Shown here: positions 2,322 to 12,913 of the stretch, in pieces
Position numbering within the stretch: position 1 is the first letter of the stretch
Layout of the letters: each line of letters starts with the position of its first letter
DNA from: Hyphomicrobiales bacterium
GTDB lineage: Bacteria; Pseudomonadota; Alphaproteobacteria; Rhizobiales; Aestuariivirgaceae
DNA: 12,913 bases
NCBI GenBank assembly: GCA_027031305.1
Contig: JALVRJ010000264.1
Span: forward strand, 1 to 12,913
Reading direction: 5' to 3'
Made by a program: the position numbers and the translations under genes
The notes under the pieces: model-generated
What the model saw: the letters and a program-made list of their open reading frames with translations, nothing else
Databases searched by the model: none
What the model was told of the DNA's origin: nothing

Positions 2322-2449
2322 ATACCAGAATGCATAAGGAACCACGCAGAAGCCCCGCGCCCCCGCCCAAGCCCTTGTTTTTCATGATTTGGGGGTTCGG
2401 CGGGGGCGCGGGGCGGTTTGCACCGGTCAGCCTTTGTGCAAGCCGGTAT
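2322..2449 (+). repeat. 128-bp MITE-like element, copy 1
   Basis: The element runs from ATACC to GGTAT with imperfect terminal inverted repeats (ATACC-A-GAATGCATAAGG against ATACC-G-GCTTGCACAAAGG). It has a left arm (2322-2352), a core bounded by a perfect 15-bp GC-rich inverted repeat (2353-2367 and 2399-2413), and a right arm (2414-2449). The right arm can itself fold through CGGTTTGCAC/GTGCAAGCCG (one G-U). A second copy lies at 12786-12913. I see no clear target-site duplication (CTC to the left, CAC to the right) and no coding capacity. MITE is a label by structure; no parent transposase is in the window. Confidence 0.8.
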
Positions 2450-2537: not shown

Positions 2538-2627
2538 AAAAGAAAGAGGCTGGTCGTCCTCCGCCGGAATTAGACAACCCCGTCCCGCAGTAGAGGGCTT
2601 CCTTGAAAGCGGCGGCGCAAACGGCCC

Positions 2628-7230: not shown

Positions 7231-7458
7231 TCAGGCCCGTTCCGTTGCGTCCGTTTCCGTTTCGGCCCGTTCCGCGTGCTCCTCGCGCCGAGCCTTGCGC
7301 GCCAGGGCCTCGCGCAGGGCGTGGGCGATGAAGCGCCCGCGCGCGCCTGCCGGCACTTGTTCCTTCAGCGCCCGCACCAGCGAGGTGGGAAGAAAGACCG
7401 AGAGCCGTTCCAGGGCTTCTCCGCCTTCCGTGGATGGACCGCGTCGTTGAATGTTCAT
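7231..7458 (-). CDS. Ribbon-helix-helix protein, orphan antitoxin-like, 75 aa
   Basis: Small predicted DNA-binding protein. Residues 16-23 (LERLSVFL) look like the DNA-contacting beta strand, 25-35 (TSLVRALKEQV) like helix A and 40-54 (RGRFIAHALREALAR) like helix B, the order seen in the MetJ/Arc/CopG fold. A charged tail of Glu, Arg and Thr follows (55-75). ATG at 7458-7456 is preferred over an upstream in-frame ATG at 7548 because AGGGGG lies 5 nt before it and the 30 extra residues are unlike the family. No toxin gene (RelE, PIN or similar) lies next to it: its 3' end abuts the convergent 235-aa gene and its 5' side faces parC divergently. It may be an orphan antitoxin or a stand-alone repressor. 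Confidence 0.7.
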   Translation of the reverse strand: MNIQRRGPSTEGGEALERLSVFLPTSLVRALKEQVPAGARGRFIAHALREALARKARREEHAERAETETDATERA

Positions 7459-7639
7459 GGCCGCCCCCTGGCTTGCCGAAAAGATCGTCCCTGGCCACAT
7501 GGCCTTGTTCCTGCTGAATATTCTTGTGGCATCGTTTCCGGGCGACATTGAGGCGCGGAGCTGAATGGCGGATGAACGCCATCAGTGCGCGGGGGCGTTT
7601 CATGTCGCCGAAGGTTGTGCATGAATGGGCATGGGCGAG

Positions 7640-9922: not shown

Positions 9923-11407
9923 TTGTTTTCTAATATTGAAAAAAAAAGATTGCAGCTTTCAAAATGCTTAGATGCCACAAAAAAGTCCCAATTGGGGCAA
10001 TTTTTTACCCCAGCCAGGATTGCCGAGTTTATGGCCAGCCTTTTTCCCGATGCATCAGGCACATGCCGTTTACTGGATGCAGGGGCGGGAATGGGAGCGC
10101 TCTCCGCTGCCTTCTTGGAGAGGTGGGCTAGCGGCGGATTTCATTTTGATCAGGTTATCCTTGATGCCTTTGAAATCGACAAGTCATTGACACCTCACCT
10201 GTATGACACCCTGCAAAGGTATATAAATTTAAAAGGATTTTCATTAAATGTAATTGAACGCGATTTCATTGAAGAGGCCACAAGGCATTTGAGTGGGGAC
10301 ATGTTTTCAGGAAGGGAATTAGAATATACACATGCAATATTAAATCCCCCCTACAAAAAAATACGCTCCAACTCTGTCCAACGGCTAGCCTTGCGCCGTG
10401 TTGGTATCGAGACGGTAAATTTATATAGCGCTTTTGTCGCACTTGCCATTGCTCTGACCATACCGGGAGGGCATATCATCGCCATTATTCCACGTAGCTT
10501 TTGTAATGGCCCTTACTATCGTTCATTCAGAAGGTTTATTTTAAGTCACACATCTATCCACAGAATACATCTATTTGATTCTCGAAGGAAGCCCTTTAAA
10601 GATGATAATGTCCTCCAAGAAACCATGATTATACATATGCAACGAAGTGGCGTGCAAGGGCCTGTGATCATTTCATTGTCCGATGATGAATCCTTTTCAG
10701 ATATTGAAAAAACTGAATACCGTTTTGAAGATTTGGTGAAGCCAGGCGATCCAGAGAATTTTATCCACATTCCGATGTCATCTCACGGAAGAATTGTTGA
10801 ACTTCCATCCTTGGCTCGTCATTCACTGGACGAAATAGGCCTCAGTGTATCTACCGGCCCAGTTGTTGATTTCAGATTACGAGAATATTTACATCAGCTA
10901 CCTGAAGAAGGAACAGTTCCTCTGCTTTATCCGGCGCATTTCAGCAATGCAGGGATCATGTGGCCTATAAAAGAAATGAAGAAACCGAATGCTATAGAAT
11001 GTAATGACATCACAAAAAAATGGCTATTTCCAATCGGATATTATTGCACTGTCCGTCGCTTTTCATCCAAGGAGGAAAGGCGGCGTATCGTGGCCAACGT
11101 TGTTGATCCTGATATCTTTCAAGGTGCCTCATTGTTAGGATTTGAGAATCATCTCAATGTTTTTCACGAACAGAGAAAAGGGATGTCTAAGAAATTAGCA
11201 TGGGGACTAGCTACCTATTTGAATGCGCCCATCGTTGATGACTATTTCAGGCAATTTAATGGGCACACACAAGTCAACGCTACGGACTTAAGGTGCTTGC
11301 GGTATCCAAGCAGAGAAAAGCTCATCAGGCTTGGCGAATTGGCAATGGAAAGAACTTTCGATCCATATGAAATAAATTTGCAATTAGAGGCCTTGAAAAA
11401 TGACTGA
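9923..11407 (+). CDS. N6-adenine DNA methyltransferase of a BsuBI/PstI-type R-M system
   Basis: Probably methylates the adenine of CTGCAG to protect host DNA. The protein has 494 aa, close to what I recall for M.BsuBI and M.PstI (about 500). Motif X is LGQFFTP (24-30), the SAM-binding motif I is LLDAGAGMGAL (50-60), motif II is around LDAFEID (80-86), and the catalytic motif IV is NPPY (141-144). The second half (~330-494) should hold target recognition. I chose TTG 9923 because GGAGAG ends 6 nt before it. An upstream in-frame ATG at 9761 would add 54 residues that overlap parC and read as its out-of-frame shadow. Base composition is far poorer in GC than parC, which points to horizontal transfer. 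It overlaps the endonuclease gene by 8 nt (ATGACTGA). Confidence 0.93.
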   Translation: MFSNIEKKRLQLSKCLDATKKSQLGQFFTPARIAEFMASLFPDASGTCRLLDAGAGMGALSAAFLERWASGGFHFDQVILDAFEIDKSLTPHLYDTLQRYINLKGFSLNVIERDFIEEATRHLSGDMFSGRELEYTHAILNPPYKKIRSNSVQRLALRRVGIETVNLYSAFVALAIALTIPGGHIIAIIPRSFCNGPYYRSFRRFILSHTSIHRIHLFDSRRKPFKDDNVLQETMIIHMQRSGVQGPVIISLSDDESFSDIEKTEYRFEDLVKPGDPENFIHIPMSSHGRIVELPSLARHSLDEIGLSVSTGPVVDFRLREYLHQLPEEGTVPLLYPAHFSNAGIMWPIKEMKKPNAIECNDITKKWLFPIGYYCTVRRFSSKEERRRIVANVVDPDIFQGASLLGFENHLNVFHEQRKGMSKKLAWGLATYLNAPIVDDYFRQFNGHTQVNATDLRCLRYPSREKLIRLGELAMERTFDPYEINLQLEALKND

Positions 11408-12347
11408 GAAGGAAACCCGCATAAAGGAAGCCATCGAAATTTTGCAAGCTTTGGGCTTACCGAAGGCCCAGCAAAACGAGCGTTCTGCCCTTTGCCTCTT
11501 AGCACTCCTAAATCTTACACCTACGAAAAATTGGCCAGAGGCAGAAAATCCACATATGGGAATAACACCCATCATGGAATGGGTACGCGAGCATTACGAC
11601 AGGGAATATGCGCCAAATACACGTGAAACCTTCCGCAGGCAGACCATGCATCAGTTTTGTGACGCCGGTTTGGTGCTTTATAATCCTGATAAACCAGAAC
11701 GCCCTGTCAACAGCCCAAAAACCGTATACCAAATAGAGCCCGAAGCTCTTGCTTTGTTGCGCGCATATGGAACCACAGAATGGAATAATAAACTGAATTC
11801 CTATCTGGCTAAGAAGAAGACATTGGCGGAACGGTATGCGCGTGAGCGAAAACAATGCCTCATACCAGTTAGATATAAAGGAGATAAAATCACCCTGAGC
11901 CCAGGAGAACATAGTGCGCTTATTAAAGCTATCATTGAGGAATTCGCTCCACGCTTCGCACCAGGCAGTGAATTGGTTTACGTGGGAGATACGGGAAATA
12001 AATGGCGATACTTTGATAACGATCTACTCTCCAAGTTAGGTATCACTATCGATACGCATGGAAAGATGCCGGATGTCGTTTTATATTTCCCTAAGAAAAA
12101 TTGGCTATTATTGGCCGAAGCTGTTACCAGCCATGGGCCTATAGATACGAAACGGTATACTGAGTTGGCGGCATTATTCGCCAACTCCACTGCTGGACTG
12201 GTATATGTAACCGCTTTTCCGAGTAAAGAGGTGATGGGGCGTTATATCAGCGAAATTGCTTGGGAAACGGAAGTCTGGGTTGCAGAGTCACCTTCGCATC
12301 TTATTCATTTTAATGGCGAACGGTTCCTTGGACCATATAATGGTTGA
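11400..12347 (+). CDS. Type II restriction endonuclease, BsuBI/PstI family
   Basis: Cuts unmodified DNA, most likely at CTGCAG. The protein has 315 aa, close to the length I recall for R.BsuBI and R.PstI. Residues 1-~135 look like the N-terminal winged-helix domain of the family (QNERSALCLLALLNL; RRQTMHQFCDAGLVLYN). The C-terminal catalytic domain begins near 150. It contains LVYVGDTGNKWRYFDNDLLS (192-211), the acidic PD pair at 224-225 in GKMPDVVLYF, and LLAEAVTSHGP with Glu240, a divergent PD-(D/E)xK arrangement in which the usual Lys is replaced by Val. EAVTSHGP is the stretch I most associate with this family. ATG 11400 overlaps the methyltransferase stop, so translation is probably coupled. 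No controller (C) protein gene is present. AT-rich like its partner. Confidence 0.93.
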   Translation: MTEKETRIKEAIEILQALGLPKAQQNERSALCLLALLNLTPTKNWPEAENPHMGITPIMEWVREHYDREYAPNTRETFRRQTMHQFCDAGLVLYNPDKPERPVNSPKTVYQIEPEALALLRAYGTTEWNNKLNSYLAKKKTLAERYARERKQCLIPVRYKGDKITLSPGEHSALIKAIIEEFAPRFAPGSELVYVGDTGNKWRYFDNDLLSKLGITIDTHGKMPDVVLYFPKKNWLLLAEAVTSHGPIDTKRYTELAALFANSTAGLVYVTAFPSKEVMGRYISEIAWETEVWVAESPSHLIHFNGERFLGPYNG

Positions 12348-12356
12348 GGAAAATAG

Positions 12357-12512
12357 CCTCTCGCAATGATAGATACAAGCCTCTGGCTGGAACCTGTGGC
12401 GCTTTCTTCCTCAAAATACTTTTCAGCGCATGAATTGAGCACATTGTTGCGTCATGTTATGAAGCACAGGCTACGGTTGCTGGAGGCGTGGCATGACCAT
12501 TTCGGCAGTTGA
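12357..12512 (+). pseudogene. DUF4160 gene remnant, 3' end only
   Basis: An open frame runs from just after a TAG (12354-12356) to TGA 12510-12512. Its product from ATG 12366 would be 48 aa, with WLEPVALSSSKYFSAHEL followed by RLRLLEAWHDHFGS. This corresponds to the C-terminal half of DUF4160 proteins, which usually end in a helix such as LLEAWHDHFG. The N-terminal half, with the conserved PPHFH-type motif, is missing. Its place is taken by the AT-rich restriction cassette, whose last stop codon is 10 nt upstream. The frame overlaps the DUF2442 start by 20 nt, as in intact pairs. It has no Shine-Dalgarno before ATG 12366, so expression is doubtful. The family match is from memory of its C-terminus. 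Confidence 0.65.
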
Positions 12513-12747
12513 AGCGCAGGCTCTGGCGCGGGATGTGGCCTTCACGGAAGACGAGATGATCGTCTCGCTCGTGGATGGGCGGCGGATTGCCGTGCCGTTG
12601 GCGTGGTTTCCGCGGCTGGCCGCCGCTTCGCGGGCACAACTGGAGAACTGGGGACTGCTCGGCGACGGCGAGGGCATCCACTGGCCCGATCTGGACGAGG
12701 ACATCAGCGTCGCTGGCCTGCTGCGCGGGAAAAGGGCGGCGGGGTAG
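12493..12747 (+). CDS. DUF2442 domain protein, 84 aa
   Basis: A small protein whose core (DEMIVSLVDGRRIAVPLAWFPRL, residues 21-43) has the beta-hairpin followed by the PL-WFPRL motif of DUF2442, and then a WPDLDEDISVAGLL segment (58-73) typical of the family end. The family is usually found beside DUF4160, and the pair is often listed as a possible toxin-antitoxin-like module, though a biochemical role is not established. GGAGG (12482-12486) 6 nt before the ATG gives a strong start. Composition returns to GC-rich chromosome level. Its partner is truncated immediately upstream, so this copy is unpaired. Confidence 0.85.
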   Translation: MTISAVEAQALARDVAFTEDEMIVSLVDGRRIAVPLAWFPRLAAASRAQLENWGLLGDGEGIHWPDLDEDISVAGLLRGKRAAG

Positions 12748-12785
12748 GGCCTGTTGCAGGATTTATCGCGGGACGGGATTGTCTA

Positions 12786-12913
12786 ATACCGGCTTGCACA
12801 AAGGCTGACCGGTGCAAACCGCCCCGCGCCCCCGCCCAAGCCCTTGTTTTTAATGATTTGGGGGTTGGGCGGGGGCGCGGGGCTTCTGCGTGGTTCCTTA
12901 TGCATTCTGGTAT
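12786..12913 (-). repeat. 128-bp MITE-like element, copy 2 (inverted arms)
   Basis: Reverse complement of copy 1 in both arms: 36 of 36 bases for 12786-12821 and 31 of 31 for 12883-12913. Between the arms the core (12822-12882) instead matches copy 1 in the direct orientation, with two substitutions (TTTTTA for TTTTTC, and GTTGGG for GTTCGG). The last base of the window is the last base of the element, so its right flank and any target duplication cannot be seen. Confidence 0.85.

Follow-up and report, generated by a model that had tools for sequence, protein, structure and literature searches.

Inversion of the loop or spacer between inverted repeats has been described for individual cases in rRNA genes (PMC8794818), yeast genes (PMC8604942) and chloroplast spacers (PMC6824564). 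Such inversions are usually observed locus by locus, and a repeat family with dozens of paralogous copies per genome allows them to be counted and roughly dated. Dispersed palindromic repeats are themselves familiar from alphaproteobacteria: for Bru-RS1 and Bru-RS2 of Brucella, another mobile element is described as inserting preferentially in them (PMC2266754). Here, we analyzed a window of 12,913 nucleotides that makes up an entire contig of a draft genome of 2.0 Mb (G000; 87% complete, 438 contigs), and compared it with the genomes of relatives (G002, G003, G004, G005, G007, G008, and G010). The window contains 2 copies of a 128-bp repeat, one of which carries its core the other way round. 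Events of this kind are known; what is useful here is the setting, a multi-copy bacterial repeat in which flips can be counted. We refer to the majority orientation, that of copy 2, as BA, and to the flipped orientation, that of copy 1, as AB. The features of both copies are as follows.

2322..2449, plus strand: whole of copy 1, a palindromic repeat of the flipped (AB) type
2322..2351, plus strand: outer arm A of copy 1 (ATACCAGAATGCATAAGGAACCAC...), 30/30 bases shared with reverse-complemented copy 2
2352..2414, plus strand: central hairpin of copy 1, with 23-nt stems that are 91% complementary and a 17-nt loop
2371..2395, plus strand: minimum inverted segment of copy 1 (orientation-informative core), 14/15 informative positions direct and 0/15 reversed
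2415..2449, plus strand: outer arm B of copy 1, 35/35 identical
12786..12913, minus strand: whole of copy 2, which is of the majority (BA) type and terminates at the contig end
12821..12883, plus strand: central hairpin of copy 2, with 23-nt stems that are 96% complementary
12840..12864, plus strand: orientation-informative core of copy 2

When copy 1 was compared with the reverse complement of copy 2, 16 of 128 positions differed, all of them within positions 50–77, while the outer arms were unchanged over 65/65 positions; the earlier note, which drew the boundaries differently, had likewise counted identical arms (67/67). The 63-nt hairpins, on the other hand, matched at 61 positions when aligned directly and at only 47 when one of them was reversed. 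We defined as informative those 15 positions where the hairpin of copy 2 differs from its own reverse complement (hairpin positions 20–44, a stretch of 25 nt). At these positions, copy 1 agreed 14 times with the direct reading and never with the reversed one, just as the earlier note had read the core. In other words, the spacer between the inverted-repeat arms is present in copy 1 as its reverse complement. The stems, being almost perfect inverted repeats, read alike in either orientation, and the inverted piece can therefore be demonstrated only over some 25 to 29 nt. The inversion inside the arms, as first proposed, therefore stands, but not its size of about 60 nt; similarly, GC-rich inverted repeats do bracket the core, but as stems of 23 nt rather than 15 bp.

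A chance origin of the stem motif is excluded: a 19-nt version of it occurs 4 times at up to 3 mismatches, against an expectation of 0.04, and none of 200 shuffled sequences reached 4 occurrences. DNA folding predicted strong hairpins on both strands of both copies (z-scores from −4.4 to −6.5), with none of 200 shuffled sequences as stable. The folding energies of the 2 copies were −37.0 and −38.9 on one strand and −38.6 and −45.1 on the other, a gap that cannot be ascribed to the flip alone, as a stem mismatch distinguishes the copies as well. Elsewhere in the window, a permuted tmRNA gene of the alphaproteobacterial type lies at 154–525 on the minus strand; it was the sole find of an Rfam scan (under 2 models), in which the element itself matched no family. 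Positions 9923–12347, following a topoisomerase IV/gyrase A gene, encode an Eco57I-type methylase and a BsuBI/PstI-type restriction endonuclease, and this region looks AT-richer by eye.

The 2 copies belong to a dispersed family of near-palindromic repeats of about 128 bp that is found in one genus of Hyphomicrobiales. Searching the source genome and 39 relatives, we found the element, among the matches listed, in 7 of 10 genomes of the same genus, while in the 29 genomes outside the genus the listed matches were very weak and confined to 2 genomes. In a pattern scan of named genomes, the core turned up in 2 draft genomes of Hyphomicrobiales bacterium and in Thermopetrobacter sp. TC1. Alignment by the core shows a GC-rich central hairpin flanked by 2 different outer arms, type A on one side and type B on the other; many copies also have short terminal inverted repeats, ATACC...GGTAT, as judged by eye and uncounted. 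In 4 copies (L068, L069, L073, and L077), the right stem reads CCCAAG in place of the TTGGG type seen elsewhere, possibly another small inversion. One query of viral contigs gave no exact match to the core pattern, and one query of a plasmid collection gave no match to copy 2. Among the titles and abstract openings listed in literature searches, which mostly covered journals outside subscription, none describes the family.

Unoccupied counterparts of one copy, L003 of the source genome, support insertion of the element as a unit, as far as can be judged from sequence comparison. The flanks of L003 lie 6 nt apart without the element at at least 2 places in G004 (C106:10614-10903 and C127:1-290), and 9 to 10 nt apart at at least 4 places in G002 (C38, C110, and twice in C21), a genome without the element among the matches listed in the family search; these flanks are themselves multi-copy sequence. 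Judging from the coordinates, the occupied site has about one extra base and no long duplication. The terminal inverted repeats and the unoccupied sites of L003 are MITE-like features. REP elements that depend on a RAYT (Y1) transposase are dispersed palindromes too, but a RAYT-driven REP was rejected, as the Y1_Tnp domain (PF01797) was absent from all 11 genomes of the genus searched, while 5 of 14 control genomes matched. By description, the family can be likened to Bru-RS1 and Bru-RS2, also dispersed palindromic repeats of an alphaproteobacterium (PMC2266754), and to ERIC, which is of similar length (127 bp) and predicted to form a single long stem-loop, but is described from different bacteria (PMC2267715). 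A second small element, with ends GGGGCTGTCC...GGACAGCCCC, sits inside the repeat loop in 4 copies, L299 (G000:C89), L059 (G000:C71), L082 (G000:C139), and L292 (G004:C70), which parallels the mobile-element insertion described for the Brucella repeats (PMC2266754). It spans a few hundred bp in L299, where the flanks are inverted rather than directly duplicated; in L059, an 8-bp direct duplication (TTTCATGA) is found across a run of N.

To call orientation across the family, we used 2 profile models, one trained on 93 BA copies as found and the other on these copies after reversal of their hairpins, and set the two bit-scores against each other at each place. We scored 254 places, which represent a subset of the copies in G004, G005, G007, and G010; of these 254, 65 were short or weak, 11 were ambiguous and 178 could be oriented. 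The oriented copies comprised 168 BA and 10 AB, numbers that were unchanged by a second check for duplicates (9 possible pairs, none joining 2 oriented copies). An earlier, smaller count had given 95 BA and 7 AB among 135 entries, some of which were chance matches. Per genome, the BA and AB copies numbered 60 and 4 in G000, 28 and 0 in G003, 25 and 6 in G004, 9 and 0 in G005, and 38 and 0 in G007; the remaining places were all BA (6 in G010, 1 in G008, and 1 with no genome assigned). All 10 AB copies are thus confined to 2 draft genomes, with none among the 28 copies of G003 (by inference Thermopetrobacter sp. TC1) or the 38 of G007. Those of G000 are the copy at window position 2322 and copies on contigs C301, C364, and C61, while the 6 of G004 are diverged and lie inside contigs; L021, one of the AB copies, abuts a contig end. 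The earlier note had named frequent occurrence of both orientations as support for its reading; both do exist, but the flipped one is rare. Since 168 of 178 oriented copies resemble copy 2, we rejected copy 2 as the flipped member. Copy 1 is the exception, with its loop and innermost stem turned relative to its arms in the assembled sequence.

We then grouped the copies into age classes by the distance to their nearest neighbor within the same genome (176 copies; 2 of the 178 had no partner in their own genome and were dropped). AB copies made up 1/91 at distances below 0.10, 0/37 at 0.10–0.15, 7/33 at 0.15–0.20, and 2/15 above that. Expressed differently, flips numbered 1 among 91 copies that have a near neighbor in their genome and 9 among 48 that do not, and the former is copy 1. 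Its 6 nearest relatives are all BA at 3% to 5% difference, in a set that omits copy 2, whose arms are identical, because it touches a contig end. With its closest relatives unflipped, the flip of copy 1 is recent; the earlier note had considered it either recent or recurrent. On a tree of the elements, for which the flipped hairpins had first been restored to the majority orientation, the 10 AB copies require 10 changes, compared to a shuffled mean of 9.8, and there is therefore no sign of a single flipped lineage. As the tree rests on about 130 columns, diverged copies are placed poorly, and an old AB subfamily within G004 is possible. Most of the copies compared had no counterpart site in other genomes. 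Among the 13 cross-genome flank matches listed, none joined an AB and a BA copy at a common site; 2 pairs adjoin the same gene on the same side (at offsets of about 90 and 41 nt), and these are BA in each genome.

We consider sporadic inversion of the loop by polymerase template switching at the hairpin the best explanation, and a probable one. As the hairpin is replicated, the growing strand would switch to the complementary strand within the stem and copy the loop backwards, and a return switch in the other stem would leave the arms untouched; which strand was copied, and when the switch took place, we can only infer. Flips of this kind would accumulate slowly with the age of a copy. Considering that this process predicts inversion between the stems, untouched arms and slow accumulation with age, it is supported by the data, and of the 2 causes that the earlier note had offered, it is the one that fits best. 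The change is probably neutral, since the fold is expected to depend little on the direction of the loop.

A less likely explanation, though one with several observations in its favor, is that the flip of copy 1 is an artefact, made either during library amplification, through snap-back copying of the GC-rich hairpin, or during assembly, by misjoining of near-identical copies. Several contig ends (L031, L033, L234, and L235) extend into the hairpin, where the sequence doubles back as a perfect or nearly perfect palindrome, so the hairpin does yield doubtful sequence in these drafts, and copy 1 is, after all, the lone flip among the 91 copies with a close relative. The window also differs from G003, G004, and G007 upstream of ilvB, where these genomes have a gene that, from its translation, we take to be miaA-like; the window has only its 3′ end at approximately 2604–2650, with more of it present in the 3 relatives, and a query with part of the gene matched nothing else in G000 apart from a stretch of 32 nt. 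In the relatives, the sequence upstream of ilvB is rearranged, with no empty site for copy 1 seen there. In addition, the flanks of another young copy, L005 (G000:C300), map to different contigs in all 4 relatives searched, with no unoccupied site in these 4, pointing to either a misjoin or rearrangement at this repeat. The miaA-like order is not general, however, as 6 of 8 ilvB stretches from other relatives gave no match to the gene (L221 and L227 being cut by a contig end). Gene order before ilvB therefore varies, and the order in the window is no proof of a misjoin. Copy 1 is, moreover, flanked on both sides by unique sequence within one contig, and its arm-core joins share only 16 to 19 nt of perfect stem with normal copies. 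This is shorter than the usual word sizes in assembly. A flip by assembly alone would thus need 2 jumps over a perfect stem of 16 to 19 nt, which we think unlikely. The 6 flipped copies of G004, diverged and internal to their contigs, also speak against an artefact.

The sequence TTAGACAAYCCCGTCCCGC is found at window positions 2563–2588 and 12768–12793 in inverted orientation, its only 2 occurrences in G000; among 5 genomes searched, it occurs once in G004, beside a relative of the gene at 12493–12747. Copies 1 and 2 also share, together with contig C285, a base in the A arm that is absent from the other G000 matches listed. The shared base and the inverted pair hint at an inverted duplication or an inversion between the 2 places. 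The 34 nt with which contig C285 begins are the same as those at the contig end of copy 2.

Considerably less probable than an artefact is conversion, in which the core of another element, annealed in reverse by way of the palindromic stem, would have replaced the original one. Near-identical cores are numerous, and copies with 2 A arms or 2 B arms away from contig ends (L100, L103, and L069) suggest exchange between elements, but conversion requires 2 exchanges in short stems, where a local switch is simpler; the core of copy 1 cannot discriminate between the two, as its loop is the commonest form. Weakest of all, and very improbable, is a miniature invertible element, in which a recombinase would use the GC-rich stems as sites and flip the core repeatedly, perhaps as a regulatory switch: the core is indeed bracketed by inverted repeats and both orientations occur in 2 genomes, but a functional switch would be expected to produce both orientations among young copies, and these are nearly uniform (90 of 91 in one orientation, with flips commoner among diverged copies), while the stem centers lie only about 40 bp apart and no recombinase domain was found in the 10 window proteins scanned (the open reading frame at 7231–7548 was outside the scan). 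The earlier note's suggestions of a recombinase acting on the arms and of such an invertible element accordingly find no support.

Returning to template switching as the preferred reading, we tentatively suggest that the family may serve as a natural multi-copy recorder of loop inversion in a wild bacterium, in which copies start out one way and flip independently and slowly, so that template-switch inversion could be measured from the share of flipped copies in each age class. The rate is possibly higher in one lineage (6/31 in G004, compared to 4/64 in G000, 0/28 in G003, and 0/38 in G007). On the practical side, a core read in the wrong direction can mislead repeat alignments, as well as assemblies across such repeats.

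The inversion described here resembles the cases described for rRNA genes (PMC8794818) and yeast (PMC8604942) in that the spacer becomes its reverse complement while the inverted-repeat arms are kept. At 25 to 29 nt, the inverted segment is longer than in the yeast cases described, which amount to 2 to 5 substitutions (PMC8604942), and than the longer rRNA loops described, of 7 to 8 nt (PMC8794818); also unlike the cases in those 2 reports, the flips occur in a dispersed, multi-copy bacterial repeat. The small inversions described for chloroplasts (PMC6824564) share with our family a common and a rare loop orientation; they, too, are thought to be neutral, and some of them change repeatedly on the tree. 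Those inversions are compared at plastid loci between species, whereas the flips reported here distinguish paralogous copies within and between bacterial genomes.
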